Source: Watersipora subatra
Taxonomy: Eukaryota > Bryozoa > Gymnolaemata > Cheilostomatida > Watersiporidae
NCBI RefSeq assembly: GCF_963576615.1
Contig: NC_088714.1
Location: forward strand, 2,170,001 to 2,234,000
Direction: 5' to 3'
Length of the DNA stretch: 64,000 bases
Under the pieces are notes generated by a model that searched no databases, was not told the DNA's origin, and saw nothing but the letters and a program-made list of their open reading frames with translations. Of the stretch, positions 1 to 64,000 are shown piece by piece; positions within the stretch are counted from its first letter, which is position 1, and each line of letters opens with the position of its first letter. The translations under genes and the position numbers were made by a program.

Positions 1-55
1 TACACAAGTAGGCCTATCAGAGTTACAAACCTTCTAGGAAAAAAGCACAACAAAC

Positions 56-365
56 ATGTAAATACTCTCCAGCATACATGTAGATACCCTACAGCATACA
101 GGTAGATACCCTACAGAATACGCGTAAATACCTTGCAGCATACTAGTAGATATACTATAACATACCAGTAAGTACCCTGCAGCCTATATGTAGATACATT
201 GCAGAATACATGCAGATACCCTGCAGCATACAAGTTGATACACTGCAGCATACAAGTAGATACACTGCAGCATACAAGTAGATACACTGCAGCATACAAG
301 TAGATACACTGCAGCATACAAGTAGATACACTGCAGCGTACAAGTAGATACACTGCAGCACACAT
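56..365. repeat. 22-bp minisatellite
   Basis: About 14 head-to-tail copies of a 22-bp unit (GCATACAAGTAG followed by ATACACTGCA). Copies are nearly identical between 240 and 350 and increasingly diverged towards position 56. The array contains PstI-like CTGCAG in most copies. It lies beyond the last opsin exon in the window, so it is probably inside the next opsin intron. The open frames across it are repeat artefacts. Confidence 0.9.
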
Positions 366-378
366 ATAAAATACTCAA

Positions 379-672
379 GTGTCAAAGGGAATGCAGAACA
401 CAAGACAGCAGTACAGAGGGAATGCAGAACACAAGACAGCCGTACAGAGGGAATGCAGAACACAAGACAGCAGTACAGAGGGAATGCAGAACACAAAACA
501 GCAGTACAAAGGGAATGCAGAACACAAGACAGCAGTACAGAGGGAATGCAGAACACAAAACAGCAGTACAGAGGGAATGCAGAACACAAAACAGCAGTAC
601 AAAGGGAATGCAGAACACAAGACAGCAGTACAGAGAGAATGCAGAACACAAGACAGCAGTACAGAATGATCT
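379..672. repeat. 31-bp minisatellite
   Basis: About 9.5 copies of a 31-bp unit (ATGCAGAACACAAGACAGCA plus GTACAGAGGGA). It abuts the 22-bp array without unique sequence between them. Because 31 is not a multiple of three and the unit has no stop, all frames stay open and give spurious 80-160 residue open frames on both strands. It is not a gene. Confidence 0.9.
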
Positions 673-1222
673 TAAACCGAAATTATCATAAAGTAACTTT
701 TGATTAGCAAAAAATGTTAACACAGTGAAAGTAATGCAAAGTTTTTCTGCACAGCCACATCACCTGTTTTTTTAAATGTGTTGTGATTAGATGACTAATC
801 TGTAAGAATCTCATTAATGGCCATAAAAGATGTGTTATACACATTAATGTGGCAAGTTTAAAATATACAGAATGTTGATTCGAATTAATTCCATGTTAGA
901 CACCCTATTGGCTCTAATAAGATTGCATTGAGTAGGCTCAACAAGGTTATTTATCTGTCTGATTTGTTTCTTTATTAATCAGTCAAATGTTCACAGATAA
1001 ATAGCGTAATGATTTGGCTTAAACCTGCATAGCTTTTGATCATGTGACCCCTAATACTGTCAAAGTGACCATCACCTTTAGCGAGTATAACACATGATCT
1101 GACACGTAAGGGAAAGGCTCAGCAGTTTAATAATTGGGAAAAAATCTTGTAGAGTAGACCAATAAAACTATTAGAAGATTTAGCGTCTGATTGGTGAGAG
1201 ACTTTTAGAGGAATAAAATACC

Positions 1223-1280
1223 ATGCCAGATGGTATGCCAGATGGTATGCCAGATGGTATGCCAGATGGTATGCCAGATT
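1223..1280. repeat. 12-bp repeat, about 5 copies
   Basis: Perfect tandem copies of ATGCCAGATGGT. They lie just downstream (in opsin orientation) of opsin exon 4, about 50 bp past its donor site. The 670-1220 stretch to the left shows nothing I can assign. Confidence 0.85.
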
Positions 1281-1327
1281 AAATCCTGCAAAGATGTGAT
1301 TTGCTAGGTGCTGAGAACAAGCCTCAC

Positions 1328-4300
1328 CGTGTAAAAAATGACTGCATTAGTGGAGATGATGATGACTGCAGGTACAAAAAAAGATCCACAAAATATAAGG
1401 GTGTTGTAGAGTGTACTGGAGTTGTCTACTCTGTACCATTTGATAGAGCATGAGACTCTTCCCTCTATTGTGTAGCTCTGCACCCCTAAAACATCAAACA
1501 TTGTACTCGTTATTTTATGTAGCTCTGCATCCCTAACAAATATCAAATATAGCTTGTTCCCTATTCTATGTAGCTCTGCATCCCTAACAAATATCAAATA
1601 TAATTTGTTCACTATTCTATGTAGCTCTGCAACCCTAACAAATATCAAATATAGTTTATTACCTATTCTATGTAGCTCTGCATCCCTAACAAATATCAAA
1701 TATCGTTTGTTCACTGTTCTATGTAGCTCTGCATCCCTAACAAATATCAAATATCATTTGTACACTATTCTATGTAGCTCTGCATCCCTAACAAATATGA
1801 AATATAGTTTGTTCCCTATTCTATGTAGCTCTGCATCCCTAACAAATATCAAATATAGTTTGTTCCCTATTCTATGTAGCTCTGCATCCCTAACAAAAAT
1901 CAAATATAGTTTTTTTACTATTCTATGTAGCTCTGCATCCCTAACAAATATCAAATATAGTTTTTTTACTATTCTATGTAGCTCTGCATCCCTAACGGAT
2001 ACCATATGCAGATTGCTTGCTACTCTGAATGTATAGAGCACTTCATCTCTAGCAAACACCAAAACATCAAATATGCAAAACACAATATTAATTTCTATTA
2101 CAAATATAGCTAATGCAATAGTTAATGAAGGAATTACGTATATTTAGTACGCAAGATAGGAAATGAGATACATTGTATGGTGTACATTTTTCCTATATAC
2201 TATATGAAAAATAATTTAGCCTCTCACCTACAAGTGGTAGGATTGCCCAGAAGAGTCCATACATCCAGTTGAATCCAATTAAAACATTTATGTAGTTGGG
2301 GATTTTCTTGCGATTTACCATGGACCAGCGAGTGTTGCTAATTGTTATGCATCGCTCTATGGAAATGGCGGAAAGATGGGCTATGGATGTCACACCACAC
2401 CAGTACATCACCATCGCATAGAAGGTACAGCCTGTACAACAGAGATGACTAATAAGTCATAGTACTCTGCAGGAGTGCAGGCGTGACTAACAAGAGCTTG
2501 CCAAATCTGGCTCACTCGCATTGCTGTTAAACTAATGATACATTAACTCAATGATTGATTTAGCCTCTACTCATATGTACATAACTGGTCAACTAGATGT
2601 CTATGCAGAAATGAAGTGCAAACATGAATAACAGAATTATCTGTATGCTTGCAGAATATTCTAATAGACTAGTGGGTAGAGGGTAATATTCTAATAGACT
2701 AGTGGGTGGAGGGTTCTATTATAATAGACTAGTGGGTAGAGGGTAATATTATAATAGACTAGTGGGTAGAGGGTAATATTATAATAGACTAGTGGGTGGA
2801 GGGTAATATTATAATAGACTAGTGGGTGGAGGGTTCTATTATAAAAGACTAGTGGGTAGAGGGTAATATTATAATAGACTAGTGGGTGGAGGGTAATATT
2901 ATAATAGACTAGTGGGTGGAGGGTAATATTATAATAGACTAGTGGGTGGAGGGTTCTATTATAAAAGACTAGTGGGTGGAGGGTAATATTATAATAGACT
3001 AGTGGGTAGAGGGTAATATTATAATAGACTAGTGGGTGGAGGGTAATATTATAATAGACTAGTGGGTGGAGGGTTCTATTATAAAAGACTAGTGGGTAGA
3101 GGGTAATATTATAATAGACTAGTGGGTGGAGGGTAATATTATAATAGACTAGTGGGTGGAGGGTAATATTATAATAGACTAGTGGGTAGAGGGTAATATC
3201 ATAATAGACTAGTGGGTGGAGGGTAATATTATAATAGACTAGTGGGTGGAGGGTTCTATTATAAAAGACTAGTGGGTAGAGGGTAATATTATAATAGACT
3301 AGTGGGTGGAGGGTAATATTATAATAGACTAGTGGGTGGAGGGTAATATTATAATAGACTAGTGGGTGGAGGGTTCTATTATAAAAGACTAGTGGGTGGA
3401 GGGTAATATTATAATAGACTAGTGGGTGGAGGGTTCTATTATAAAAGACTAGTGGATAGAGGGTAATATTATAATAGACTAGTGGGTAGAGGGTAATATT
3501 ATAATAGACTAGTGGGCGGAGGGTAATATTATAATAGACTAGTAGGTGGAGCCATTTGAGAAATCTAATCAGATGCGAATTATCTTTCAAAATTTCAAAC
3601 ATGAAAAATTAATTAGTATCATCATGAAGCTCAAAAATTTTGCTACCTCTTCTTAAATTCACTGGTCTTTAGTCTATAGAAACTCTGACTCTCTTGAAAA
3701 CAATTATTTTTCCCATATCTGTTAATATACTAAAAGTTTTAAAATTTGTATAGCTAAAAAAGTAAAAGGAAAGGATCTTTTAGAAAACCTATAGAAATTT
3801 TGCAACAAGATTTAAAGGAAAGAGTTGCTAATACCTAATTAATGCGGGCTAATACAGCTGATATAGTTAATACAGCTGATATAGCTAATATAGCTAATAT
3901 AGCTAATATAGCTGATATAGCTATAGCTAATATAGCTGATAGTGAAAACATCACAGAGTACAAGTTGGAACTGACCTGCAGAAGAGTTACAATATAAGAA
4001 AAGCATATATATTTTATTTGGTTATAGTAGACTTATTTAAAGTTATATTGCTACAATTCCAGTGTGTATAAACTATGGGCCATCTTTGTACTTTCATGCA
4101 TGGCTAGATACAAAAGTGAACCGACCTGCCTCCGGAGGTTATACAAAACTGTGATAACTTTCTTTGGCATGTACATAGAGAATGATTGAGTAGTTTTCTA
4201 TCTTCACAAACTTACAGCAAAGTATAATAATTGTTACAAACATAATTCTATGAGTCAAACTTTCTTTCTTGCAGTAAAAAGAATTCCATTCATTTACTAT

Positions 4301-5787
4301 CATGACCACACAAATCCTATTTATTTATATTCAAGTTTGTAACGGGCTGTGCAAGCAACAAAGAACAGATGATTTAAAAACTATACCTTTTTCTCCAAAG
4401 ATCCAACGATGATGGAAGCAGTTAGTGGAAAACATGGTACCTCCAACCATAGCCATGATTCCATCACTCACAGCCAAGCTTCTCAAAAGGCGTGTTGTTC
4501 TTGTTTGAAGTGATTTGCTTTTTGTGAACAGAATTATTGCAGAGATGTTAGCGAACAGGCCGACAATAGTTAAGGCTGAGAGACATACTCCTGCAAACCA
4601 GTAGAATGTAAAGTTAGTGCAAGCTGCCTTAGTTTGAGATCTATAAGATGAGCTCGTTACAAACAAATATTAATGTGTAGGTTAAGTTTTTAGGCATAGC
4701 CTACTTGTATGTAGAGAATTTGAAGTTTTCCAGAAGCAAAATTTTTTAGAAGTTTAGAAAATCTGTGAAACGATAACATAAAATGAATAAGCCTGATGCA
4801 CCTACCAGTACAATATTGTAGTTTCACTATCATAGTCTGTTTCCCTATCATAATGCAGTTTCACTATCACATTGTCTTTTATTATCATAATGCAGTTTCA
4901 CTATCACATAATCTGTTTCACTATCACATTGCAGTTTCACTATCATAGTCCATTTCGCTATCATAATGCAGTTTCACTATCATAGTCCATTTCACTATCA
5001 TAATGCAGTTTCACTATCACATTGTCTTTTATTATCATAATGCAGTTTCACTATCACATAATCTGTTTCACTATCACATTGCAGTTTCACTATCATAGTC
5101 CATTTCGCTATCATAATGCAGTTTCACTATCATAGTCCATTTTACTATCATAATGCAGTTTCACTATCATAGTCCATTTTACTATCATAATGCAGTTTCA
5201 CTATCACATTGTCTTTTATTATCATAATGCAGTTTCACTATCACATAATCTGTTTCACTATCACATTGCAGTTTCACTATCATAGTCCATTTCGCTATCA
5301 TAATGCAGTTTCACTATCATAGTCCATTTCACTATCATAATGCAACTTCACTATCATAGACCGTTTCAGTCAATATGCTACTGAGTTCCTAACTCATAAC
5401 ATACAAACCAAACTGCTAAGCAAACTAGTGGACAAGACTTACAAGCTCAGCCAGTTCTTTCAAACCAAAAAGAGTGACAAACTCCAAATATCTATATGTT
5501 TAATGAAACAACACAAGAATGTAGAACAGTTCTTTAAACTCTCAATACAATATTGTCTAACAAGCTGGCCTCTTACTATATCATTCTCGGCTAGCATGTA
5601 CACGGACTCGTCGCTACATAACAGGTAACCATGGTAACCATTACAATCAGAATATACTAAAGGTTTTACCTAATATAATATCGGTGTAGAACTCTAATGG
5701 CGTAGTCATTAGCAGTGTGTCATTTCTTCTTGTCGCGTTACAAACAAAATTGTTTTGAGTCCAGTCACCAAAACAGTAAGAAACCAT
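1328..5787 (-). CDS. Opsin-like GPCR, 5' four coding exons (3' part off the window)
   Basis: Exons on the minus strand are 5787-5670, 4590-4387, 2431-2228 and 1485-1328. All have AG/GT borders; junction phases are 1, 1 and 1 and the last exon ends in phase 0, giving 228 residues to that point. The start ATG at 5787 has A at -3 and G at +4. Exon 1 has two N-X-T glycosylation sites (NAT, NDT). Helix 1 has GLFANISAI; helix 2 has LAVSDG with the sodium-site Asp; then HRWIFGEKGC before helix 3 with the disulfide Cys. The helix 3 end is ERC instead of D/ERY. Helix 4 is GLFWAILPLVG; loop 2 has YTIEG (Glu at the E181 position) and SCSIKW (second disulfide Cys); helix 5 follows. Loop 2 and the GLFWA motif look most like the peropsin/RGR side of the opsins (inference). 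The Schiff-base Lys of helix 7 would lie left of position 1, so retinal binding cannot be confirmed. Confidence 0.85.
1499..2035 (-). repeat. 51-bp minisatellite derived from the opsin intron 3/exon 4 junction
   Basis: Ten 51-bp copies plus a diverged one fill nearly all of opsin intron 3. The shared core GTAGCTCTGCATCCCTAAC recurs at about 1517, 1568, 1619, 1670, 1721, 1772, 1823, 1874, 1925 and 1976. Read on the opsin strand, each unit is TTTGATATTTGTTAG followed by GGATGCAGAGCTACATAGAA. The true exon 4 acceptor reads TTTGATGTTTTAG then GGGTGCAGAGCTACACAATA. The unit is therefore the last ~20 intron bases plus the first ~30 exon bases. Each copy carries a decoy AG acceptor followed in frame by a TAG stop. 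Confidence 0.9.
2652..3553. repeat. 30-bp minisatellite with higher-order pattern
   Basis: About 30 copies of a 30-bp unit containing AATAGACTAGTGGGTGGAGG. A variant with TTCTATTATAAAAG recurs mostly every fourth unit (120 bp) with some 60- and 180-bp spacings, a higher-order structure typical of unequal exchange. It lies in opsin intron 2. The 303-residue minus-strand open frame across it arises because 30 is divisible by three. Confidence 0.9.
3849..3940. repeat. Short (TAATATAGC)n-type tandem repeat
   Basis: Irregular copies of AATATAGC and GATATAGC, alternating in 9- and 18-bp periods, in opsin intron 2. No other feature is seen in the remainder of that intron (3554-4386). Confidence 0.75.
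4822..5360. repeat. ~20-bp minisatellite with higher-order blocks
   Basis: Copies of a ~18-20-bp unit around TTTCACTATCATAATGCAG, with variants (CATAGTCCA, CACATTGTC, CACATAATC) that recur in the same order, so blocks of roughly 150-180 bp are repeated at about 4855, 5005 and 5185. It fills much of opsin intron 1. Confidence 0.85.
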
Positions 5788-8487: not shown

Positions 8488-9130
8488 ACGTACTCTTCTA
8501 TATGCATATACTTACACTCTTCTATATGCATATACTTACACTCTTCTATATGCATATACTTACACTCTTCTATATGCATATACTTACACTCTTCTATATG
8601 CATATACTTACACTCTTCTATATGCATACACTTACACTCTTCTATATGCATATACTTGCACTCTTCTATAGGCATATACTTACACTCTTCTATACCCATA
8701 TACTTACACTCTTTTATATGCACATACTTACACTCTTCTATATGCATATACTTACACTCTTCTATATGCATATACTTACACTTTTCTATATGCATATACT
8801 TACACTCTTCTATATGCATATACTTACACTCTTCTATATGCATATACTTACACTCTTCTATATGCATATACTTACACTCTTCTATATGCATACACTTACA
8901 CTCTTCTATATGCATATACTTGCACTCTTCTATAGGCATATACTTACACTCTTCTATACCCATATACTTACACTCTTTTATATGCACATACTTACACTCT
9001 TCTATATGCATATACTTACACTCTTCTATATGCATATACTTACACTTTTCTATATGCATATACTTACACTCTTCCATATGCATATACTTACACTCTTTTA
9101 TATGCATATACTTACACTCTTCTACTATAT
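8488..9130. repeat. 24-bp minisatellite with 11-unit higher-order repeat
   Basis: About 27 copies of a 24-bp unit (TATATGCATATACTTACACT plus CTTC). A run of variant units (CATACACTT, CTTGCACTC, ATAGGCATA, ATACCCATA, ATGCACATA) appears at about 8625-8735 and again 264 bp later, exactly 11 units. Since 24 is divisible by three, both strands give long spurious open frames of 8-residue repeats. Confidence 0.92.
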
Positions 9131-9333
9131 ATGTATGTACTTACACTTTTCTACTGTATATGCATGTAAATACCGCTAAATAAAGAAGATAAGCGCTACT
9201 GAATTCTTTCTATACCAAGAGTGAAACCCTTTTCTGGTAAATTATCAGGTTTATTTACAATTATTTCGAAGTTTCTATACAATGGCATATAAATACTAAA
9301 CAGTAATAAAAATGACTAACACGCCTCAGTTCA

Positions 9334-9890
9334 TCACTTATTCAAAGCTGCCCGGCTAGCATTGCTCGTTGAAGCGTTTGTAACACATTCTCTGAAGTCA
9401 GTGACTTCCTTTTGGCACTTTCTCCAATCCTTGGTTTCAGCATGACATTCCAGCACAGCCCAGTGCTTTTCCAAGCATCCAATCTTGCTCAACCCCGCCT
9501 CTACCGGGTCTAGCTCATTGTCATCAACCTGTGCCAAAAGTCACACCGCCCGATGAGAACATATAAAACGAGATGACGATAGCATCCACAGAGACAAAAT
9601 AAAAGATAAAAAATGGCAGATAAAAAATGATGGCAAATGGAAATTTTTGTCTTTGTTCAACAATTTGCTAGCCACAAACTTTAGTTAAACCGGCTCGTGA
9701 ACATGTTGACATTGGAAGGCAAGTGTATTATAGTAGTATCCACTCCATCATTCCAGTACCCCAATCATAAGTAATACTCATGATTAGGGTATTGATCATG
9801 AGTATTACTCAATAGATTCCACACATGATTGCAACGAGTTGACAAAGATTTTCGTAAACAGCTTACCACATTGCCAGTATTGTCACTCAT
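9334..9890 (-). CDS. COA4: COA4-like cytochrome c oxidase assembly factor (twin CX9C)
   Basis: Two coding exons: 9890-9867 (MSDNTGNV, donor GTAAGC) and 9528-9334 (acceptor GCACAG, joined in phase 0), encoding 72 residues ending at a TAA. The second exon has two CX9C motifs, CLEKHWAVLEC and CQKEVTDFREC, in one helix-turn-helix coiled-coil-helix (CHCH) fold. Spacing and the surrounding DW-x-KCQ resemble animal COA4 (CHCHD8). By family, this is a small intermembrane-space protein oxidised by the Mia40 system and needed for complex IV assembly. There is no in-frame ATG upstream in exon 2 (TGA a few codons before the acceptor), so exon 1 is required. Exon 1 is inferred from ATG, frame and donor only and is the less certain part. 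An AATAAA is visible on the minus strand just past the stop, near 9308. Confidence 0.82.
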
Positions 9891-29699: not shown

Positions 29700-30935
29700 C
29701 GTAGTTATTGAAACAGCATTGAAAAATTTAATGACTGTATGTACAGTTATGATATTTGCTTTGTTTTTAAACCAATGGCCATACAAGCAAATGTTCATGC
29801 ACTGATATTTTTGCCATCAATTTGGGAACATCTTATTACAAATGTTTTGAGATTGGTGGCGACTAATTGTGCTCTTATAATCATTGTGTAATGTTCCAAA
29901 CTAATGGTTGTAATATAATAAGTATTTGTTGCGGTATTCATCTTTCCAAATTAGAGATATTTTATTCTTTGTCATCAAATGTAACAACAAACTGAAGAAA
30001 ACTTTTTGTAACATCCTTGATATGAATTAATACTATGTATGCACCAGTAAATTTTGACAATTATTTCAAACCAATGGTTAAAAGATCATGCAAACTCGTG
30101 GTTATATTTGAAGCCTCAAATTAGCAACAACATAGCACAATGGCGTTGAGATGCTATATCACTCAAACTGCTTTTGTAATAATTGCTCAATATCCCCGAG
30201 CAAATGGTTAAAAAATCATACAAGCTTTGTGGAGATAATGAAGCGAGCATTAGGGACATTTTATTACAGATACTTTGAGCTGTTGTACGACTGTGAGCGG
30301 AGTTGCATATTGGCCAACTTCCCAGAATAGTTACATAATTATAAACACTGGTGATGGTATTTTAGCATCTATTTGGGGACATCTTGTCACAATAGCTATG
30401 AGATGCTTGATCACTGTGTGTAGATTGGTAATAATTGATCAATGTATCAGTCTAATGGAAGCAAAATCATTCACAGTTGCAATATTAGTTTTAGCACAAA
30501 ATTGGTGAAGTCTTCTCACACATTCGCTTTAAGATGGTTGGCGAATAAGTGTACACTTACAATTATAGATCAATTTTTTCAAGCTAATGGTTCAAATATA
30601 ACTAAAACTTCCTGTGATATTTGTGCCATTAAATTAGAGAGATTTTTCTACAGCCCAGATGCTTTGAAATGATTAGTGACTGTAAGTGAACTTACAAAAA
30701 TTTGTAAAGTCATATGCATATGTGATAATAGTTCTGTGATCAAATTGAGACATCTTGGCATGATGAATTTACATGGCTTAAAACTGCACATTATTTTATC
30801 ATAATTGGTTAATGCGACCATACAAATGTTTAAAACAGCGTAAACATGTCTGAGATATTTGGCTGTCAAATAACGGCCATCTTACAGCAACAGTTTTTAG
30901 ATTGTTCATGTCTGTGATTTCACACATAATAATTG
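29700..30935 (+). repeat. Decayed monomeric satellite flanking the 260-bp array
   Basis: Irregular copies of a ~110-130-bp unit related to the half-monomers of the adjacent array. Each has a version of CCAAxCxAATGGTTAAAA, then ATCATAC, then a CAAATT-GGGACAT-like segment (for example around 29890, 30070, 30200, 30450 and 30580). Divergence is far greater than in the array. The small open frames at 30275-30672 are parts of these units. Confidence 0.65.
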
Positions 30936-30939
30936 TTCT

Positions 30940-33900
30940 ATGTCCCAAAATATATGGTTAAAATATCATACACACCTGTGAGAATAATTTTACCATCAAA
31001 TTGGGGACATATTGTTGCAATGGTGTTGACATTGTTTATGACTGACTGTGTTCTTTTGTTCTAATTGGTCAATGTGCTTAGAAAACTGCTTAAAAAGCAT
31101 ATTCATTAGAGTTGATATTTTTGCATTAAATTTGGAACATCGAGCAGCGATGGTATTAGGAATGATGATGACTGTGATTTCAAATAAAATAATCAGTCAA
31201 TGTCCCCAAATCAATGGTTAAAATGTCATACACACCTGTGAGAATAATTTTACCATCAAATTGGGGACATATGGTTGCAATGGTGTTGACATATTCTATG
31301 ACTGACTGTGTTCTTTTGTTATAATTGATCAATGTGCTCAGGAAACTGCTTAAGAAGCATATTTATTGGGATTGATATTTTGGCATTAAATTTGGAACAT
31401 CAAGCAGCAATGGTATTAGGAATGATGATGACTGTGATTTCAAATAAAATAATCAGTCAATGTCCCCAAATCAATGGTTAAAATATCATACACACCTGTG
31501 AGAATAATTTTACCATCAAATTGGGGACATATTGTTGCAATGGTGTTGACATTGTCTATAACTGACTGTGCTCTTTTGTTCTAATTGGTCAATGTGCTCA
31601 GAAAACTGCCTAAGAAGCATATTTATTGGGATTGATATTTTAGCATTAAATTTGGAACATCGATCAGCGATGGTATTAGAAATGATGATGACTGTGATTT
31701 CAAATAAAATAATCAGTCAATGTCCCCAAATCAATGGTTAAAATATCATACACACCTGTGAGAATAATTTTACCATCAAATTGGGGACATATGGTTGCAA
31801 TGGTGTTGACATATTCTATGACTGACTGTGTTCTTTTGTTATAATTGGTCAATGCGCTCAGGAAACTGCTTAAGAAGCATATTTATTCGAGTTGGTACTT
31901 TTGCATTAAATTTGGAACATCTAGCAGCAATGGTATTAGGAATATTCATGACTGTGATATCAAATAAGATAATCAGTCAATGTCCCCAAATCAATGGTTA
32001 AAATATCATACACACCTGTGAGAATAATTTTACCATCAAATTGGGGACATATTGTTGCAATGGTGTTGACATTGTCTATAACTGACTGTGTTCTTTTGTT
32101 CTAATTGATCAATGTGCTCAGAAAACTGCTTAAGAAGCATATTTATTGGGATTGATATTTTAGCATTAAATTTGGAACATCGAGCAGCAATGGTATTAGA
32201 AATGATGATGACTGTGATTTCAAATAAAATAATCAGTCAATGTCCCCAAATCAATGGTTAAAATATCATACACACCTGTGAGAATAATTTTACCATCAAA
32301 TTGGGGACATATTGTTGCAATGGTGTTGACATTGTCTATGACTGACTGTGTTCTTTTGTTCTAATTGATCAATGTGCTCAGAAAACTGCTTAAGAAGCAT
32401 ATTTATTGGGATTGATATTTTAGCATTAAATTTGGAACATCGAGCAGCAATGGTATTAGAAATGATGATGACTGTGATTTCAAATAAAATAATCAGTCAA
32501 TGTCCCCAAATCAATGGTTAAAATATCATACACACCTGTGAGAATAATTTTACCATCAAATTGGGGACATATGGTTGCAATGGTGTTGACATATTCTATG
32601 ACTGACTGTGTTCTTTTGTTCTAATTGGTCAATATGCTTAGAAAACTGCTTAAGAAGCATATTTATTGGGATTGATATTTTAGCATTAAATTTGGAACAT
32701 CTAGCAGCAATGGTACTAGGAATATTCATGACTGTGATATCAAATAAAATAATCAGTCAATGTCCCCAAATCAATAGTTAAAATATCATACACACCTGTG
32801 AGAATAATTTTACCATCAAATTGGGGACATATGGTTGCAATGGTGTTGACATTGTCTATGACTGACTGTGTTCTTTTGTTCTAATTGATCAATGTGCTCA
32901 GAAAACTGCTTAAGAAGCATATTTATTGGGATTGATATTTTAGCATTAAATTTGGAACATCGAGCAGCAATGGTATTAGAAATGATGATGACTGTGATTT
33001 CAAATAAAATAATCAGTCAATGTCCCCAAATCAATGGTTAAAATATCATACACACCTGTGAGAATAATTTTACCATCAAATTGGGGACATATGGTTGCAA
33101 TGGTGTTGACATATTCTATGACTGACTGTGTTCTTTTGTTATAATTGGTCAATGCGCTCAGGAAACTGCTTAAGAAGCATATTTATTCGAGTTGGTATTT
33201 TGGCATTAAATTTGGAACATCTAGCAGCAATGGTTTTAGGAATATTCATGACTGTGATATCAAATAAGATAATCAGTCAATGTCCCCAAATCAATGGTTA
33301 AAATATCATGCACATCTGTGAGAATAATTTTACCATCAAATTGGGGACATGTTGTTGCAATGGAGTTGACATATTCCATGACTGACTGAGTTATTTTGTT
33401 ATAATTGTTCAACGTGCTCAGGAAACTGCTTAGGAAGCATATTCATCGAGGTTGATATTTTGGCATTAAATTTGGAACATCTTGCAGCAATGGTATTAGG
33501 AATAATCATGACTGTGATCTCAAATAAAATAATCAGTCAATGTCCCCAAATCAATGGTTAAAATATCATACACACCTGTGAGAATAATTTTACCATCAAA
33601 TTGGGGACATATTGTTGCAATGGTGTTGACATTGTCTATGACTGACTGTTCTTTTGTTCTAATTGATCAATGTGCTCAGAAAACTGCTTAAGAAGCATAT
33701 TTATTGGGATTGATATTTTAGCATTAAATTTGGAACATCGAGCAGCAATGGTATTAGAAATGATGATGACTGTGATTTCAAATAAAATAATCAGTCAATG
33801 TCCCCAAATCAATGGTTAAAATATCATACACACCTGTGAGAATAATTTTACCATCAAATTGGGGACATGTGGTTGCAATGGTGTTGACATATTCTATGAC

Positions 33901-34620
33901 TGACTGTGTTCTTTTGTTATAATTGGTCAATGCGCTCAGGAAACTGCTTAAGAAGCATATTTATTCGAGTTGGTATTTTGGCATTAAATTTGGAACATCT
34001 AGCAGCAATGGTTTTAGGAATATTCATGACTGTGATATCAAATAAGATAATCAGTCAATGTCCCCAAATCAATGGTTAAAATATCATGCACATCTGTGAG
34101 AATAATTTTACCATCAAATTGGGGACATATTGTTGCAATGGAGTTGACATATTCCATGACTGACTGAGTTATTTTGTTATAATTGTTCAGCGTGCTCAGG
34201 AAACTGCTTAGGAAGCATATTCATCGAGGTTGATATTTTGGCATTAAATTTGGAACATCTTGCAGCAATGGTATTAGGAATAATCATGACTGTGATCTCA
34301 AATAAGATAATCAGTCAATGTCCCCAAATCAATGGTAAAAATATCATACACACTTGTGAGAATAATTTTACAATCAAATTGGGGACATATTGTTGCAATG
34401 GTGTTGACATACTCTATGAATGACTGTGCTCTTTTGTTATAATTGGTCAATGTGCTCAGGAAACTGCTTAAGAAGTTGTATATTCATTAGGGTTAATATT
34501 TTGGCATTAAATTTGGAACATCGAGCAGCAATGGTATTAGGAATGATGATGACTGTGATATCAAATAAAATAATCAGTAAGTGTCCCCAAATCAATGGTA
34601 AAAATATCATACACTCCTGC
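30940..34620 (+). repeat. Satellite array of ~14 copies of a 260-bp dimer
   Basis: The marker AAATATCATACACACCTGTG (or variant) recurs at 30961, 31221, 31481, 31741, 32001, 32261, 32521, 32781, 33041, 33301, 33561, then about 33819, 34079, 34339 and 34599. Each 260-bp unit is two related ~130-bp halves: TGGTTAAAATATCATAC to TTGGGGACAT, GCAATGGTGTTGACAT, AATTGATCAATGTGCTC; and TGCTTAAGAAGCATA to TTTGGAACAT, GCAATGGTATTAGAAATG, AATCAGTCAATGTCCC. A 778-bp (three-unit) block at 33041 is repeated at 33819. No conserved open frame. Confidence 0.95.
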
Positions 34621-35380
34621 GATAATTTTTCTACAACCAATATCGGGATTTATTTTCATGATAATATTTCTACTAATTTGTTAAACTAATGGTTACAAAC
34701 TTGTTGATTAAAATACCAAACATTCCCTTGTGTTCATATTGACCTCTAAATAGTTGATGGTGAAAAGTACAGACTCCCTATTAGACTAGCATTGAGCAAA
34801 TTTATGATATCGTGCGCACTTGTAATAGTTTGTCAATTGTACCTAAATAACTAATATACCTGTATACTAATACAAACACACTTTTCTTTTATGTTTACAT
34901 CATACATCAGAAAAGTTGTATGACAACATATTTGAGACTATTTTTACGGTTTGCAGTTACAATAACTGGCCAATTACTTCAAAAAACATTGACTGTAGTA
35001 TCATACATAATTTGGATGACGTACACGCCTTCAAATGGAACAAAGTTTATTTCAATAGTACCGAGATAGCTCAAATCAGTGTGTGCAGTGATAGTATTTA
35101 TTTAACACTCCCAAGCTAATGGTTAAAATATTTTGCATATTTTTGGTCATATCTGCACTAAAAGTTGAGTCAATCTTGTTATTAAATATTTGAATAGATT
35201 ACAATTAAATGTATGGTTTTTGCAAAGATGGGCAACTCAATATATTTTTAAGAAAATGTAATAGAAGGCAACTTTTTGGTACGGATTACACGTTTTATTA
35301 AACATAATGATAAGTTTATAAGGTAAAAGTTATTGGGCTTACATTAGGCATATTGGAGATACCAATGCTTCATTTCCAAA
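34621..35380. other. Diverged satellite edge and AT-rich sequence
   Basis: Scattered satellite-like pieces (CTAATGGTTAAAATATT near 35116; CTAATGGTTACAAAC near 34687) show the array decaying on this side too. No coding sequence is supported. Confidence 0.5.
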
Positions 35381-36385: not shown

Positions 36386-36739
<354 letters not shown>

Positions 36740-48194: not shown

Positions 48195-51100
48195 CTACAC
48201 GTCTACCACCATCTTCTTGTGTATATCCATGCTGCCGACCACCTGTAATATAAACATTAACATGCTGTTGTAAAGAGCAACAAAAAAGACGCGTTGAACA
48301 GTGATTATAGACCAATGGGAGTGAATTTGTCCAGTTAAATGGTGCTATAGAAACGTGGCGTTTCGAGTCGCTTAATAACCAGTTGTTATGTTACGGGTGG
48401 TTCTGGTGTGTGTGAGTGTGCAAAGTATTCCGGTGCAACTGCCGAGGATTCTTTGTTTTATACACTTGTACTGTCAATTTTACACCATGTAGAACAAAAA
48501 ACTTTTTTTTTGTCCGACTGCCTTTAACCGTTTCTCAGCTCCCTTACCACCTTATTTTTACATTTTTTAGTTTTTACAGACGTGTCAACCGGATAAGCTA
48601 GAAATTATTCCAACACATACAACATGTACACTCATAGCTGTTTACAGCTAAATGATACATCGAGTTGCTTTGTTTGCAGCGTGCATTGGCTCAAGCCATT
48701 TGTATACAGCTTTAGGTGGAAGTGATGACAATGAAACACCTCTTCATATCCTACCTCACAAAACTCCTGAAATGATATTTTTCCATCTCCATCTTTGTCT
48801 GCAAAAATAATTGTCTTGTCTACGATCTGCTGCAGCTGAGTGTCCTTGAGATTCGTGCCAACCATCATTTTAAGCACCTGGAAGAGTTCGCCATTTGATA
48901 TATAGCCGTCCTTATCCATGTCATAGATTTTGAATGCAACTGTAAAGAGAGAATAGCCTCTGTAGCAGCACTGTTATTAGCCTGTCTTGACAAACTGTTG
49001 TTTTTTGTGGAGTTGTCCCTCTGTTGAGCGGGTGAACGAAACAACAGCTTGTCACAACACGCACTGCACCTGATGCATCAGCGGCACTGAAAGGGAGTTG
49101 TTTTCTTCCGTCTATGCGGTTAAAGCATCAGACTTGTAAGGCAGGCGGCACACTTTCGGCACATTAGCATGACTTGACTTCTTAATATTTTGTGGAACTA
49201 GCGATGATAGTTGTATGAAAGAGATATTGCGAGCCACAGATCCCAAAATCAAACGGGCTTACTTTGACAATGATTCGATATGCGAGTATAGTTCTGGGCT
49301 ACATATAATTTGTATTTACACGAGGCTTGAACGTTGCACGGGAATTCTGGATGGTTAGTTAGGAACATCGTTAGCTGGCTCTACTAGTAGTAGTGGTAGC
49401 AAGCCCGTATTCCCTGGGGCGGCTGAGCCACCCCAACTTTTTAGTAATTTTTGGCGGCTCAGTACTAAGAATTGCAGTCTAAGCTCATTCACTTGGAATT
49501 TCCAACTACTAATTATTAGCGCTCATGCAACTAGCAACGAAGTAGAGAGGCTCACTAATCTAGTATTGGTTTTGCTTGCCACTAATGTGGTGAGTGAGTG
49601 ATCTTTTTCTGCATTGAAGCAAATCAAAACATCGATGAGGAGCAATATGGGGCAGGCTCGTCTAAATAATCTTCTAATATTACACATATATAAAGATGTT
49701 GAAATAGATACAGTATCAGTTGTAAAGGATTTCTGCCATGGACACATTGACAGAAGAAGAGCTATCGCAATAAAGAAGTAATAGCTCTTGTTCTATCAAG
49801 GTCCCTTGCAGAAACAACATGTGAATACAGTGTACAAATTATATGTAGCCCAGAACTATACCCGCATTTCAAATCATTGTCAAAGTAAGTCCGTGATTTT
49901 GGGATCTGTGGCTTACAATATCTCTTTCATACAACTATCATCGCTGGTTCTAGAAAATATTAAGAGGTCAAGTCATGCTAATGTGCCGAAAGTGTGCCGC
50001 CTGCCTTACAAGTCTGATGCTTCAACCGCATAGACGGAAGAGAACAACTCCCTTTAAGTGCAGCTGATGCATCAGGTGCAGTTTGCTTTGTGACAAGCTG
50101 TTGTTTTGCTCGTCCGCTTGACGGGGAGACAACCCAACAAAACAAAAATACAATGCCAACCTCCTAAACAACACAGCCCAATGTAATATTTATTAATCTT
50201 TAGAGTACCAGCAGTGGAATCACACTTTCAATACTATAGTCGTATACAACAGCCTTTACAAATATCATCAGCATGAAAGGCACTATTAACCATTCTAGAA
50301 CATATTGAGTGCGTATTACACTAGTAAAATTTAAGAGATGCTCAACTAAGATGATAAAAGACGACATGTATGTACATACATTTACTTTTTAGAAAACATC
50401 CTTTTGCGAGAAAGACAGTCTTGTGAAATCTGTGAAGTTATTGAGTTATGATATAAAAGTTGTATGGACCAATAATTTTGGTCCTGCTGGATTTGTGATG
50501 TCCTAGATCACGATGCCCCTGCTGGATTTGTGATGACCCAGATCATGATGCCCCTGCTGGATTTGTGATGCCCCTGCTAAATTTGTGATGCCCCAGATCA
50601 TGACTTGCTGGATTTGTGATGTCCCAGATCATGATGCCCCTGCTAAATTCGTGATGCCCCTGCTAAATTTGTGATGCCCCTGCTGGATTTGTGATGCCCC
50701 TGCTGCATTTGTGATGCCCCTGTTAAATCTGTGATGCCCCAGATCAAGATGTCCCTGCTGAATTTGTGATGCCCCAGATCATGATGCCCTGCTGAATTTT
50801 CATTATCGTTGGAGAAGCACTGCCAGCATATTTATTATCATATTTGCATCATCAACAATTTATGATAGAAAGCCGCATACAGATATTTGCATTGGTGTAT
50901 TTTTCCTGAAGGAAAAAACACTGCTAGTCAAAAAACCACTGCTAGTAACGATAAAAATCAGTCCAGTACAAATAAATAATGGGTTCATGACATGAATAAA
51001 ACTACATATTGGGCTTCAAAATATTTCATTACCTAAAGAATTACCTCAGAGGTTTCATAAACAGTTCCAATTTACAATAGTCGTCTTCATACATCAGGTG

Positions 51101-54100
51101 GAAGTGAGATTATCTCGGTTCATATATAAACAGTTGTTCGTGGGGAGCCCTGTTGATGTCATCATTCAAAAGTGAATTTTAAATGGAGCCAATTTGAGTA
51201 GGAAATTAATAAACTGATATTATGTTCCCTTGAATCAATGATTTCAGCCAACCACAGATCAGTCGATTTAACACCACTAACATGAGTCAAAATGAGATCA
51301 CTTCATTACACTCAAAAACTTACACTTACGATCGGGTGATTTAATAATCACGGCTGATGGGTACTCATATACAATTCATCAACCGTCCGACAGAGAAATC
51401 TGATAGAGATGAACTAAGTTTCTATACCACATGATAGCAGTACCTACTGAAGATGGCAAGTGATGAGCTGCCACGCATGATAAGTACCACGCGATAACAA
51501 TACATGATTATATTTGGACTCACATTTTAATTTCGACTCTTTGTCTCCCTTCACGCTGAATTGTGACACTCCCTCAATGAACTCTACAATACAAGTCAGA
51601 CGTCAACAGCCATTAAAAAGTAAGTGTCAGAATACAATTGTTAGATATAAATATTACGCAAATGAAGCTTTGATAGTAGCTGACCCTCGTAGCAGTTCAA
51701 CTACCACAGAAACAAAAGCTGCTTCAACAGATAATCTCCTTTAAGAAAAGGTCTAGAGGCATGAACATGACAGTAGTCCTATACGTGTACATACTTCTAT
51801 ATATATATATATATATATATTTCTCAATAGTCTGTCGTCTGTTTTCATTATGTCCAGCTATAGACATGAATATCTTGGAATAACGATTCCGTATGGCAGA
51901 AAATTTGAACTCGGACCCTCCGGTTTACCAGACAGACGCCGTACCAACTCAGACATACGAACTTGATCCCTTCACTAGCGATATATGACACTATATGGGA
52001 GCAAATACGCTACGGCTTTGCGTACTATGCACGGTGATTGCCTAACATCACCGAGAGGGTAGCTCTTATTAGTAGGCTTACTCAAATTATGCATTGGCAA
52101 TAGACCAGGCTAATAGCAAGTGGCAGGCAATTCTCATTAAATCTCATTGTTTATAAGCTGATTTTTAAGACCCGGAAAACGCTGGGTAGCGCAGCCAGTG
52201 TATTACAAAAGGAGATTTTGGAATCTAGTTTGTCCGGTATTTTTGGGCACAATGCAACAAACATAGTCCAACCTTGACATAAAATATGTTTCAAGATTTT
52301 ATTCATGCCAACAGCATTGTATGTTGGAGCATATATTCTTAGAACAACACACTGCGCTGCTCAATTCACTCCAAGCTCCAAAACTTGCTGATAAATACAT
52401 AAGGCAATTATATATAGCCTTAAAGGTTGACTTGCAACAAAATTCACATTACAGTTATTTGGTATCAAAAGATTCACCATGTCTTACTCTGTTGTGTTGT
52501 AGGTGCCAAATACGTGGAAATGCGATTGCAAGCTCTTAATAGCTCAAAAACGAAAAGCCACCATAGATTGGAATCTCTTTATTTATCTGACGTATTCATT
52601 ACAGTTTGGTTATCGTCTTGTCACGTGATGTTCTCACATGAATTGAAAGGCCAATAAAAAGCTCAATATAAACTTATCGTAGCACTAGTTTATGACAAAC
52701 ACTTCTCATTTTACCGAAGACCCCCGTATCAAATATAGATGCTCGCTACTTTACAGTTTTGTTTCGGCTTGGACTAATCGTCAAGTCGTAATCTGATCAT
52801 GTGACCCAATACTTCGCAAATAATTTTTTGCAGCACTTTTCGATTATCACAGGTAACCAACAGGCTCGTCATGATTATCAGATAATGATATGTACTCCTT
52901 CGAGCTAAGGTTAAAAAGGTTAACGATTTTTTACGGTAAGTTATAAGATATCAGTGCTAAAAGTGACAGCATTACAATGATGATAAAACAGACGTGTAAG
53001 AACAATAGACATGGTTTTATTGAATGCGCGAAGTATATTTGTGAAAATATTTCGATGAATGCGATTGCATGAAAGTGTAAACAGAAACCATCCTGTAACA
53101 ACTACGTCCCATTTGAGCCGTTTTAGAAAGCGAATCCAAACTACGGCGGTCTCGTGTGGCTACGATTTACTGTTCGTTTTTGAGCTTTTAAGAACTTGTA
53201 ATCACATTCCCATATATTTTGCACCTACAACACAACAGAGTAAGACATGGTGAATCTTATGATACCAAATAACTGTAATGTGAATTTTGTTGCAAGTCAA
53301 ACTTTAAGAGGAATAGATGGCATGAAAAATGGTTATTTAACTAAATATGTAAGAAACTGAACTAATAGATGTAATGGCAATGAAATAAGTTTTATAATAA
53401 TATCACTAGGCCTTCTTATTGGTCAGTGGGTTAGAGGTGCAGCCTTGGTGATACAGATGAGACGGAGTATATGTAGTGGTGGCTATGAAGACATGGCTGG
53501 TCTAACATAGATTACGTGAACTTTAAAGCAACCTAACTTGTTTATATATACTTCTGTATTTATATGTTACATATTTCGAAGGAGTTTTATTTTTAAATAT
53601 CATAGTTACATTGTAGCTTTTCCACTTGCACTCATTTTAGACTCTTTTCTTCACATAATTTTTATTTTCTAATAATCGATCCAATGATGTTTGCTTGTGT
53701 TTTATTATACAATCAAATACTTTTTTTTCATAAGAAAGCATTACACTTTCCATCATTCACAAATACTGCATTACGCAGAAGTCCTCTTGAACTCCATAAA
53801 TTTAAAACTATAATAGTATGATGAAATGTATTATTTGGACGGTGTAGATCCAAGCTATGTGAACTAGAACTGTGTAATCGATATAAAGATTTACAATACT
53901 GAAATCTTTTGAGACACTTTGAATGCTGCATGTTAGAAATTAATTCCAATGTTAAATCAGATGCTAACTTTTACATTCTTAAATTTTATTCTCCGTAGTC
54001 AAAGATTTAGAATGCTAGAATGCTTAGGTGATCTGAGATAATCTGGTATAGCCGTGTTCAAGTTGTGAATACTCCGTCGAAACTATAACATTGTGAGAAG

Positions 54101-55427
54101 AAAACCCTAGTGACACCATAGTTAATAGCAAGTGGGTTAGATCTCATTGGTTAGATCTCAATGATTAGATCACAGAGATTGACGAGAAGTCATCCTAACT
54201 GCAAGATATACAAACCTTTAAAATCGACCTCTCCATTGCCGTCTCTGTCAAACACATCAATGACTCTTTGTACAAGAGGGTTTTGCTGAAGCTCAGGTAA
54301 AGACATAAACTCAGCAACGCTAAGAGAACCTGAGTTATCCAAGTCCAGCTTCTTAAACCGTTTTCCCAAGCGTCTAATCTCTTCTGAATCGACTATAATA
54401 AAATTTACAATAAACCATTAAGCTACAACTGCACAGGAACACAGCTGAACAGGAAGGCTTGTGGAGGCTAGGCCTAGACCTACACACATGTATAATGATA
54501 CAAATGTAGTAGATATACTACATATAGTGATATGCACAAGATATGAGCGCACTGACAAGTTGTTTGAAGTTTTAAAAAGTTTTGCCTACATGAAAATAGC
54601 ATTACTATTATTAAATAGCATTATTATTAAAACAGAAAGTAACATTACTCCATTCCACCATCTTCATTTCTCCAGTAATATTCGTGTATCTAGACTTTAT
54701 TTGGTGCACATCCTGACATGATATTATATCAAAACATGTTTCTTTGGTCAAAGTATTTGAAGGAAGCCAATATAACCCTTTTTAGAACGCTATCTCGCTT
54801 TAATTAATCGCCTCACCTTTTTAGTTGAGACGCAATTGCTAAATAGAAACCAAATTAATCGTAGCTAAGGATATAGTATCATACCAACTATAACACGTCA
54901 ACAGTACATTCACACAAGTCACCTTCCTTTCATTCTTGAAAATAACTTATTTACGCATGAAGAGATTTTGCAACACAAACAAAGCTTGACAAAAAACCCA
55001 CAAGACTACCTTTACACTATATTTATTGTAGAGCTGAAAAACTAGCTTTTTTATTGCTGGGAATAAACTATTCTAGCAAAAAAATCTTTCCAATTGGTAA
55101 TGGCGATGTCCTAGCAAGTGAGTGTTGCCATTTTAAAGAAAGTTGCAAAAGATTATCTCAATCTGTATCATTGATCTCTACTCTAAATAAAACTTTAAAA
55201 TCTTGAAGTCTCATTGTAGCCCGCACATGATATCTACCCGATTGTCCTTATCTTGTATGACTTGAACAGCATAGAAAATGTCATGTTATGAGAGCTAACA
55301 TAGATGATTGGATAAGCCCAGTTAATAACCAACAAAGAACAAACACCTGTATGCAAACGTGTAAAATGGCAGGGATAATGCACTTACAGGTAGAAACCAA
55401 CTCCATTGAAAGCGATGCTTCGTTGCC
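48195..55427 (-). CDS. PPP3R1: Calcineurin subunit B (Ca2+-binding regulatory subunit)
   Basis: Minus-strand exons are 55427-55388, 54392-54216, 51583-51524, 48939-48755 and 48242-48195. Every junction has AG/GT borders and matching phase. With an initiator Met from a separate exon the product is 170 residues, the usual length. The second residue is Gly (GNEASLSME), the N-myristoylation site once Met is removed. Four EF-hand loops: [24 protein letters not shown] (split by an intron), [12 protein letters not shown] and [12 protein letters not shown]. The C-terminus is [11 protein letters not shown]. By family, it binds the catalytic A subunit of the Ca2+/calmodulin-dependent phosphatase. Exon 1 should be just ATG, as in other animals: 60072-60070 (ATG then GTAAGC, AAAATGG context) or 57497-57495 (ATG then GTATGT) fit; I favour the former weakly. 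Introns hold several transposons. Confidence 0.95.
49012..50130. mobile_element. Long inverted repeat enclosing a hAT remnant
   Basis: Arms of ~300 bp, 49012-49320 and 49830-50130, are diverged inverse copies (AGCATCAGACTTGTAAGGCA, CATGACTTGAC, GTTGTATGAAAGAGATATTG and TAGTTCTGGGCTACATATAA on the left, each found inverted on the right). The ~510-bp spacer contains the hAT C-terminal fragment and a TGGGGCGGCTGAGCCACCCC palindrome-like segment near 49418. It sits in intron 3 of the calcineurin B gene. Confidence 0.85.
49518..49781 (+). pseudogene. hAT-family transposase C-terminal dimerisation domain, with in-frame stop
   Basis: Plus-strand reading gives [21 protein letters not shown], a TGA stop, then [34 protein letters not shown], ending at TAA 49779-49781. 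The LPATNA-x-SERSFSALRRIKTYLRSTM-type motif is diagnostic of the hAT C-terminal domain (also ZMYM-like proteins). The TGA replaces the usual Arg of SERSFS. It is a dead fragment in the antisense orientation relative to the host gene. Confidence 0.85.
50490..50800. repeat. ~18-36-bp minisatellite
   Basis: Copies of GATTTGTGATGCCCCTGCTG alternating with GATTTGTGATGCCCCAGATCATGATGCCCCTG-type longer units. It lies in intron 3 of calcineurin B (48940-51523). The rest of that intron outside this array and the hAT inverted repeat has nothing recognised. Confidence 0.85.
51822..52198 (+). mobile_element. Helitron-like element with reverse tRNA-like segment, mutated 3' end
   Basis: Begins TCTCAATAGTCTGTC after a (TA)n tract and ends with a decayed hairpin (CCCGGAAAACGCTGGG) and CCAG where other copies have CTAG. 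It is colinear with 7361-7779, including the tRNA-like part at about 51889-51962 (minus strand) and TTTATAAGCTGA near the 3' end. Located in intron 2 of calcineurin B. Confidence 0.6.
52420..53307 (-). mobile_element. TTAA-type MITE, complete copy
   Basis: Starts TTAAAGGTTGACTTGCAACA and ends with the inverse GCAAGTCAAACTTTAA; the terminal inverted repeats are ~150 bp. The interior is non-coding. It is inverted relative to the copy at 55850. The TTAA at each end fits piggyBac-style TTAA targeting, but could equally be part of the TIR. Lies in intron 2 of calcineurin B. Confidence 0.85.
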
Positions 55428-61317: not shown

Positions 61318-64000
61318 ATGGCTGCTGGTGTAAGTTTCGTGGCAAAGAAGTTAACTATTTTCATAATCAATACAATTTTACCTGTCAATCTAGCCATCGT
61401 TGGGTGAATAAAGTATTTTCATTTAGTTTTGCAGTTTATCTTCTTTTTGCGTGCATTGTTGTGAGCTAATCTACATTTGATTGCTTTCATTAGTTGTACA
61501 ATTGATTATTCATTTATCTTGTAGACCCTCTATACATACCCAGAAAATTTCAGAGCATATAAGGTGATTGCTGCTGCCAACTACAGTGGCTTTGACCTTA
61601 CTGTGGACGCTAACTTTCAATATGGGACTACAAACAAAACGTCTGAGTTTATGTCCAAATTTCCTCTAGGGAAGGTTAGTATTAACAAACTACAAAAAAA
61701 CCGGTTTTCCAATATCTTTATTTCACTTCATAATTTGTACAAGATGTCTCAGCATTCAGAATTCTAAAGTCAACACATTGTGTGATGCAAGGGAATGAGG
61801 GCCTGTAAACATTGCCTTACTACATGTGCTGTTGAGAGTTATTTCAAAACCTGTCTGATACCCAAAACTCTGATAAACTTTGAAGATGCTGTGTAAACCT
61901 GCATCTGTTCTACTAGACTAGGAGAAATGTAATGCAGATCTTAGCAGTTCTTAGCTTATAAAAGATAAAATTTTTAGGGGAAGAAATTTTGCAAACGACA
62001 ATAGTTACTATACATGGATGTACTTATGATATGTATTTTACCTCATATCCTGATACCAATTTCATGTTCAATATAAGGATTGCTTAGTGTAAATGTCTTA
62101 TTTTGTATATTTGAGAAAACGTACATATCAAACCTCATAGAAAGCATGTTGACTTCCTAAATTTGACATTGACCGTATAATGGATGCATTTATTAAAATT
62201 AATAAATGGCCATCAGTATAGTGGGATTTGACCAATTTTGTCACACATATTTCACTCATTCATTACATGACGATGTTATTAAATTTATGATCTATGTTAT
62301 TTATTCTTATGATAGAATAAACCATTTCAGTGTGATGTATCACTTTGGATAACAATTTTTGTGCTTCAGTGCCTTTTTTTCATATGTATGTCATATTTGT
62401 ACGCATGCTGTCAAAAGTAGGCTGGTTTAAATCTGCGTGTGCAATGCATACCATGTCCATATTACTTCATTTTTGTGATATTTTAATGCAATCTCAGGTC
62501 CCTGCTCTGGAGTCTTCTAATGGTGTGTGCTTGAATGAGAGTAATGCCATTGCAAGTTTTGTGGCTAACGAGAAGTTAACTGGATCCACCCCAGAAGAGA
62601 GAGCTCAAGTGATGCAATGGATGAACTTTGCTGATGCTGAGATCCTTCCAGGAGTGTGCACATGGGTGTTCCCTTGCATGGGTTTCATGCAATACAATAA
62701 ATCTGTAAGTCATCAGGTTTTTTGGCTGGCCAATTGAAAAATTTATATTCATTAATTCCCTGTCACTTTTCACGCTCAACTTGGATGGTTTGGTGTGCCA
62801 TTAACCAGGGAAATACCAAAACGACTTCCTATCGTTCCAAATTATCAATCTGATAAATTTGGTCCAAAGGTCACCAACAATAATTGTTACCAATTAGTCG
62901 TTATTTTGTCTTAGAACACAGAAAAGGCAAAAGAGGATATATGTTGCGCAATGAAGGTGTTAGATGACAAACTGGCAGGCCAGACTTATCTTACCGGTGA
63001 TCATGTGACACTGGCAGACCTCAGTGTGGCCACCAATCTTCTCCTCGCTTATGAATGGGTGATGGATCCAGCATTTAGAGCTCCATTCCCAAACACTAAC
63101 AGGTGGTTTGAGAAGGTTGTGAATGAGCCTGAAGTCAAGAAGGCATTGCCTGAATTTAAACTCTGTGAAAAGATGGCACAGTTTGATGGTATGTATTGAA
63201 TGGAATGTTTTCTTTTTTGCTGTCCTTATGTGGCTTGGGTTTCCGTAGTATTATTTTGACCAAGTGAGCAAACTAAATTGAAGCTTCATACTAAGAAGTT
63301 TTCCCTCTTATGTACAAAGGCAATAGTTATTGCACTCATAACTTTAGGAGTTATTTTGTCCCTGTTTGTAGCAATATGACTAACATGGTTATTATAATTG
63401 TTTTAGCAGTTAGGATATCAGTAGATGAATTCACCAAAAACCTCTTAGTCTCCATCTAAAATATTTGTCATGTGGCATGTAACGGGTCAGCGCAGCTACG
63501 TTTAAAAACCTAAATTCTACAAGTATTAGGTGTATGTTTTTAAAATTGCGATGTCGTATGCAGGCCATCTATATGTAGGAAATGCTCTCGATTGGTTCTT
63601 ACATGCATACTAATGCATCTAATAGTCATATTTTCTGTGGTAGTTGGACTCGGTAGTCAAGTTTAGAAACTGCCATGCTTTTGGGAGAATCAACATATCG
63701 CACAAAATTTCATCTGATTACGATCTATTGTATAGTTCGTATCCTATCATCATTATGCTATGATGCTTTTACATTGAGTTTCTTCACCTGATATCTACTG
63801 AAGACATCAAGTACTGAGCACTTACATTAGCAGCGGATGTCATTATTGAGATCCTTGCTTATTATTCACCGGTGTGTAATATTTTTGTTATAGCTAAGAA
63901 GTTCGCTGCTGCTGCTAAAAGTGGTACAGAAAAGAAAGGTGGCGAGAAAAAGGAGAAGCCTCAACCGGCAAAAGAACCTAAGGCTAAAGCTCAACCTGCT
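61318..64000 (+). CDS. EEF1G: Elongation factor 1-gamma, 5' five exons (continues past the window)
   Basis: Exons 61318-61329 (MAAG, donor GTAAGT), 61525-61674, 62498-62704, 62915-63188 and 63894-64000+, all with AG/GT borders and phases 0, 0, 0 and 1. The N-terminal GST-like domain is evident: TLYTYPENFRAYK at the start, NESNAIASFVANEKL (the ESNAI glutathione-site motif of this family), then GSTPEERAQVMQWM and TWVFP; the C-terminal helices have HVTLADLSVATNLLLAYEW and FPNTNRWF, ending KLCEKMAQFDAKKFA. Exon 5 enters the Lys/Ala/Pro-rich linker (KKGGEKKEKPQPAKEP); the conserved EF1-gamma domain must follow off the right edge. By family, it is the scaffold subunit of the eEF1B nucleotide-exchange complex. 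A pyrimidine-rich CCTTTACTTCC just upstream of the ATG (61301-61311) could be a TOP-type 5' end, typical of translation genes, but the transcription start is not shown. Confidence 0.96.

Follow-up and report, generated by a model that had tools for sequence, protein, structure and literature searches.

The window, a 64-kb stretch of DNA, carries at its left end, on the minus strand, a gene for an opsin-like GPCR. Exon 2 occupies 4387..4640 with an uncertain acceptor (an AG ending at 4641 or 4591, for an exon start at 4640 or 4590), exon 3 occupies 2228..2431 (204 nt, donor TAG|GTGAGA) and exon 4 occupies 1328..1485 (158 nt, donor GTGAGG at 1322..1327), all on the minus strand. The splice-site scores used throughout come from mammalian tables of the Shapiro-Senapathy type and serve as a guide only; on them the exon 4 donor reaches 10.2. 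The joined exon translation of 189 residues matches the Pfam model 7tm_1 with an E-value of 1.2e-26 and the related model Srsx more weakly (2.4e-06), and its best match among solved structures is squid rhodopsin (8.4e-19), before 5-HT1A (3.8e-11). By both comparisons the protein belongs to the rhodopsin-family 7TM receptors and has opsins as its best relatives. The name opsin rests on similarity, because the retinal-binding lysine of helix 7 was not found within the window, where no exons past exon 4 were found either and, judged by eye, 1-1327 shows no opsin-like frame. At 2349-2357 (minus strand) the protein reads ERC in place of the DRY of squid rhodopsin. Elsewhere in the window, translation by eye points to what we take to be a two-exon gene resembling COA4/CHCHD8 (9334-9890, minus strand), to exons presumably resembling calcineurin B (48635-54417, minus strand) and, on the plus strand, to exons that we assume to resemble elongation factor 1-gamma (61525-63196). 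A scan of the window returned no Rfam match at the gathering threshold and no tRNA.

Exon 3 ends in phase 1 (GTA G|GTGAGA), and exon 4 starts with the last two bases of the split glycine codon, followed by VQSYTIEGRVSC. The AG ending at 1486, within the acceptor region ACAATGTTTGATGTTTTAG (1486..1504, minus strand), restores the exon 3 frame (TTTTAG|GG GTG CAG AGC TAC ACA ATA GAG GGA). The join then reads LPLVG|VQSYTIEG and aligns without a gap across the junction with squid rhodopsin (GPIFGWGAYTLEG, E 8.4e-19), so that the exon end sits at the homologous place. On the strength of phase and homology we therefore place the real exon 4 acceptor at 1486. Directly after the junction the opsin-like protein has V-Q and the squid protein W-G.

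Transcript-upstream of exon 4 lies a 51-bp tandem array (1511..1996, minus strand; 9.5 copies with 93% matches by TRF). It can be divided into ten units over 1511..2020 (minus strand), each composed of 29 nt of the intronic and 22 nt of the exonic kind and each carrying an acceptor-like sequence, TTAG|GG(A/T)TGCAGAGCTACATA. The AGs of these decoys end at 1992, 1941, 1890, 1839, 1788, 1737, 1686, 1635, 1584 and 1533, in nine steps of exactly 51, and the final step, from the decoy AG at 1533 to the real AG at 1486, measures 47 nt. Mean pairwise identity among nine units is 92% (84-98%). Divergence is seen in the intronic half of the most upstream unit (1992) and at the exon-side end of the last one.

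The unit is homologous to the border of exon 4. Its consensus aligns with the true junction over 36 columns with a score of 41, a value reached by none of 2000 dinucleotide shuffles of the junction (best shuffle 24); in window tiles outside the region, on both strands, the top score of the consensus is 32. This 36-nt core takes in 19 positions of the junction on the intron side and about 15 on the exon side, the latter being GGGTGCAGAGCTACA. Its extension is significant in neither direction, with 247 of 1000 shuffles as good further into the exon and 221 of 1000 as good into the intron past TTTGATG, and 15 of the 51 unit positions fall outside the match. Taken singly, eight of the ten units score 41 to 45 against the junction with 30 to 38 identical positions, unit 1788 scores 36 with 29 positions and the outermost unit, 1992, scores 33 with 18; in units 1890, 1839 and 1584 the match to the junction reaches about 12 nt deeper into the exon. 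With at most one mismatch allowed, the 64-kb window contains the motif TGTAGCTCTGCA 11 times, where shuffling predicts 0.37, and all occurrences lie within 1471-1988, ten in the array and one in the exon. The sequence-only reading had proposed an opsin gene whose exon 4 acceptor was copied upstream in ten 51-bp units, as a minisatellite copying an exon border. Gene assignment, acceptor position, register and homology all bear this out, and chance resemblance between unit and junction, the alternative that it had set against its own claim, does not account for the alignment.

We also considered, and rejected, a dispersed repeat: the 12-nt motif has no further copy in the window, and the best other match of the unit, at 43.5-43.9 kb (score 32), is gapped and covers the linker and the intronic half of the unit, the exon part being absent. 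Beyond the outer end of the array, a possible eroded older unit (TTTGATGTTTTGGTGTTTGCTAGAGATGAAG; 2024..2075, limits approximate, minus strand) has its AG at 2049, with 12 of 1000 single-base shuffles as good.

The 51-bp array is one of seven tandem arrays in roughly the first 5.4 kb (1-5400), with units of 22, 31, 12, 51, 30, 9 and 37 bp and a combined 2681 bases. The gene is full of minisatellites, so contact between one of them and a border needs no special cause and is, in our judgement, not surprising. We compared nine array consensus units with nine exon borders (seven of the opsin gene, two of the COA4-like gene; 81 comparisons, top three scores each), taking as null the 99% point over 400 random places. 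The 51-bp unit scores 53 at the exon 4 acceptor. Three other scores at or above the 99% point were taken as chance because 81 comparisons were made: at the exon 3 donor the 30-bp unit scores 23 (null maximum 22), at the exon 2 donor the 51-bp unit scores 25 (null maximum 26), and at the 4591 acceptor the 22-bp unit scores 20 (null maximum 23). A 24-bp array between the COA4-like gene and opsin exon 2 (8492-9144, minus strand, 26.4 copies) repeats the donor-like hexamer GTAAGT, which occurs 25 times in 8490-9170 on the opsin strand and reaches 6.6 on the donor table in the four copies listed. Further into the window there are a satellite-like array of 14 copies of 260 bp (30908-34626) with a weaker inner period of 130 bp, and a perfect (GT)174 run (36389-36736).

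Spliced from exon 3, the TTAG decoys would give GMQSYIE followed by TAG in eight of ten cases (with L for M at 1635), GMQSYIEQ and TGA from 1737, and GMQSYIK and TAA from 1533; all ten meet a stop after 7 or 8 residues. The earlier statement that each decoy leads to an in-frame TAG holds for the eight but not for 1737 (CAG TGA) and 1533 (AAA TAA), and it is incomplete in that it overlooked a second, in-frame TGCAG acceptor in each unit. On the mammalian table the real acceptor appears weak, scoring 2.98 where two other acceptors of the gene reach 9.2 and 7.6 (the second uncertain), and the decoys appear weaker still, eight of them at 0.5-0.9 and two at 2.0 and 2.8. Two of the 62 AGs in the intron outscore the real site, those at 2025 (4.4) and at the TGCAG of 1627 (4.0). 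Because the real acceptor is weak and these two score higher, competition with it is conceivable.

The array acceptors might then form a ladder that competes with the real site and lowers or tunes the correct mRNA, mainly through TTAG|GG sites leading to early stops and decay. The weakness of the real site would suit such a role, as would ten near-identical acceptor copies that each soon reach a stop and a splice-site part that varies little from unit to unit. Branch-like motifs, searched with the consensus YURAY, speak on both sides. GTAAT lies 24 nt before the TTAG of 1635 and ATGAT 17 nt before that of 1737, both weaker matches, but in eight of the ten units the perfect match, TTGAT, is placed just 10 nt before TTAG, and units 1992 and 1788 have no branch-like motif within reach of it. 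A branch-point-like UAAC (1509..1512, minus strand; ATAAC, candidate branch A at 1510 as judged from the motif) stands 24 nt before the real AG and has no counterpart in the units. All ten decoys also score below the real site, and the authors who described amphioxus mirages suggest that these repeats, the border minisatellites discussed below, leave splicing undisturbed (PMC3087553, PMC3902484). We regard competition of this kind as unlikely. The suggestion of the sequence-only reading that the decoys could lower or tune splicing or yield truncated receptors is a conjecture, and what evidence there is makes a function for them improbable. Two further candidates were rejected. Tandem micro-exons would have to rely on unit donors that are weak, with the exception of TAG|GTAATA at 1662 (4.1, against 3.7, 9.1 and 10.2 for the donors of the gene), and for array RNA structure a 150-nt stretch of the array folds worse than shuffles (z 2.25) and the junction folds as an average sequence does (z 0.38).

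The second AG of each unit, TGCAG|AG, lies 8 nt past TTAG, is present in 10 of 10 units and is always in phase with exon 4. Five exon-proximal sites (1525..1735, minus strand; AGs ending at 1525, 1576, 1627, 1678 and 1729) also match the phase of exon 3 and meet no stop through exon 4, and their use would add 13, 30, 47, 64 or 81 residues; the five farther sites run into the TGA in the stretch before 1737. Among 61 AGs in 2200-1487, the nine that keep the frame open are all inside the array. In-frame insertion is a possibility written in the sequence, which is no evidence that the sites are used. If these acceptors were used at times, 13 + 17n residues would be inserted in frame after transmembrane helix 4, in extracellular loop 2, the length following the number of units. 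Each of the five sites sits 18 nt past the TTGAT motif and the one at 1627 scores 3.99 against 2.98 for the real site on the mammalian table, but the other TGCAG sites listed score 1.1-1.3, a TTAG precedes each site by 8 nt, and we estimate, rather than compute, that a one-in-three frame and an open 17-codon unit arise easily by chance. Most changes between units alter a residue in the exon 4 frame (by eye) and one is TGA; because of this we see no sign of protein selection on the units, and a coding array of 17-residue repeats was rejected on the same ground. The inserted peptide would be hydrophobic and, to our knowledge, resembles no opsin loop. We hold occasional use of these sites to be very unlikely. 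Even more doubtful is a scheme in which the five proximal TGCAG|AG sites, by adding 13 to 81 residues to the loop, would let copy number set a family of receptor isoforms and the TTAG sites of the same units would switch the message off. If such a ladder were real, selection would explain why the splice-site part of the unit varies so little.

Variation among the units is uneven. Of the 21 mismatches counted in nine units, 16 lie within one 11-nt stretch, of which eight positions lie outside the junction-like core and three at its edge; by simulation, p is 0.014 when distinct variants are counted and 0.0016 with column shuffling. Variable positions amount to 3 of 198 on the exonic and 18 of 261 on the intronic side of these units (p 0.006). 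No such clustering was found in the five other arrays tested (p 0.317 or more). The test omitted units below 80% of the consensus, namely three of 14 in the 22-bp array and four of 14 in the 260-bp array, together with unit 1992, the outermost of the 51-bp array, and kept all units of the 31-, 30- and 24-bp arrays. Because the width of the stretch was picked after seeing the data and six arrays were tested, the low variation of the splice-site part may hint at constraint and carries no further than a hint.

Taken together, we consider it probable that the array is a mirage-type border minisatellite whose copies are mostly passive. A short segment across the intron 3/exon 4 junction of the opsin-like GPCR gene would have been tandemly duplicated, and its intron-side copy then expanded to ten 51-bp units by slippage or unequal exchange, with the true junction still forming the end of the array towards the exon. 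The spliceosome would take the original acceptor at 1486, aided by the UAAC that the copies do not have, and any decoy use would be minor noise. The 15 unit positions that lack a junction match, the clustered variation, the lower variability of exonic positions, the branch-like motifs of 1635 and 1737 and the weakness of the real acceptor, which two other AGs outscore, count against this reading. Its direction could also be reversed, a pre-existing intronic repeat having replaced the beginning of exon 4 through conversion or intron sliding, and it is true that the V-Q at the exon start differs from the W-G of squid rhodopsin and that the exon start agrees with the unit. But no gap interrupts the opsin alignment at the junction, an argument for the exon as the source of the unit, and G, Y, T, E and G are kept. 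The Thr codon after Tyr is moreover intact in exon 4 only, the units having ATA, and the possible eroded outer unit matches TTTGATGTTTT of the junction (score 23, 13 of 14 positions). Reversal seems to us very improbable. The array, its register, its reading frames and its homology with the junction are established by the sequence itself; for the mirage-type reading, we infer the direction from exon to array, the passivity of the copies and the use of the branch point from features of the sequence.

The closest known relatives of the array are the mirages, the original account of which is said to be that of Canestro et al. in 2002. These amphioxus minisatellites span intron-exon borders in Adh3, the globins BflGb6 and BflGb9 and troponin C, with similar repeats in PGBD5; many of their repeats, although not all, keep splice signals, and it was proposed that new introns could arise from such arrays (PMC3087553). 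In one globin gene mirage length differs between haplotypes (PMC3087553, PMC3902484). The array described here likewise has diverged end units, and its 51-bp unit falls inside the 10-72 bp given for Adh3 (PMC3087553). Like a mirage, it adjoins the authentic border of its own gene (47 nt from the last decoy AG to the true AG), its unit holds both sides of that border, and splice signals are kept (TTAG|GG and TGCAG|AG, each in 10 of 10). Unlike the mirages described, it belongs to an opsin-like gene, no source in the junction was detected for 15 nt of its unit, and it is known from a single haplotype, as DNA sequence only. The GC content of the window, 34.9%, is below that of amphioxus. Should the species lie outside the cephalochordates, the array would show that repeats of the mirage type also occur beyond amphioxus.

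Among the literature matches listed (titles and abstract starts, with subscription papers thinly covered) there was no opsin border minisatellite, and other known systems share single traits with the array. In human IFI6 (6-16, G1P3) a minisatellite gives multiple splice donors (Turri et al. 1995, cited in PMC4526556); there, too, a minisatellite multiplies a splice signal in the transcript, but the repeats supply donors rather than acceptors, and these are used. Variable tandem repeats at exon-intron boundaries are also reported from human segmental duplications (PMC2812944). They resemble our case as exon-border minisatellites from which alternative splicing and novel introns may result, and differ in being human paralogs whose changed gene structures are supported by transcripts. 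UBC, with tandem dual-specific splice sites, offers an array with one splice signal per unit, although its AGGT sites lie in coding repeats and were shown to splice stochastically (PMC10809524); the opsin-array unit reading TAG|GTAATA (1663/1662) may be compared with them. Set beside these systems, the opsin-like array is a good example of an already known kind of repeat and clearly documents, in sequence, a minisatellite that has its unit in common with an intron-exon border. With ten graded copies beside a weak authentic acceptor, it would allow the rules of acceptor choice (branch-point distance, TAG versus CAG, frame) to be tested in one minigene.
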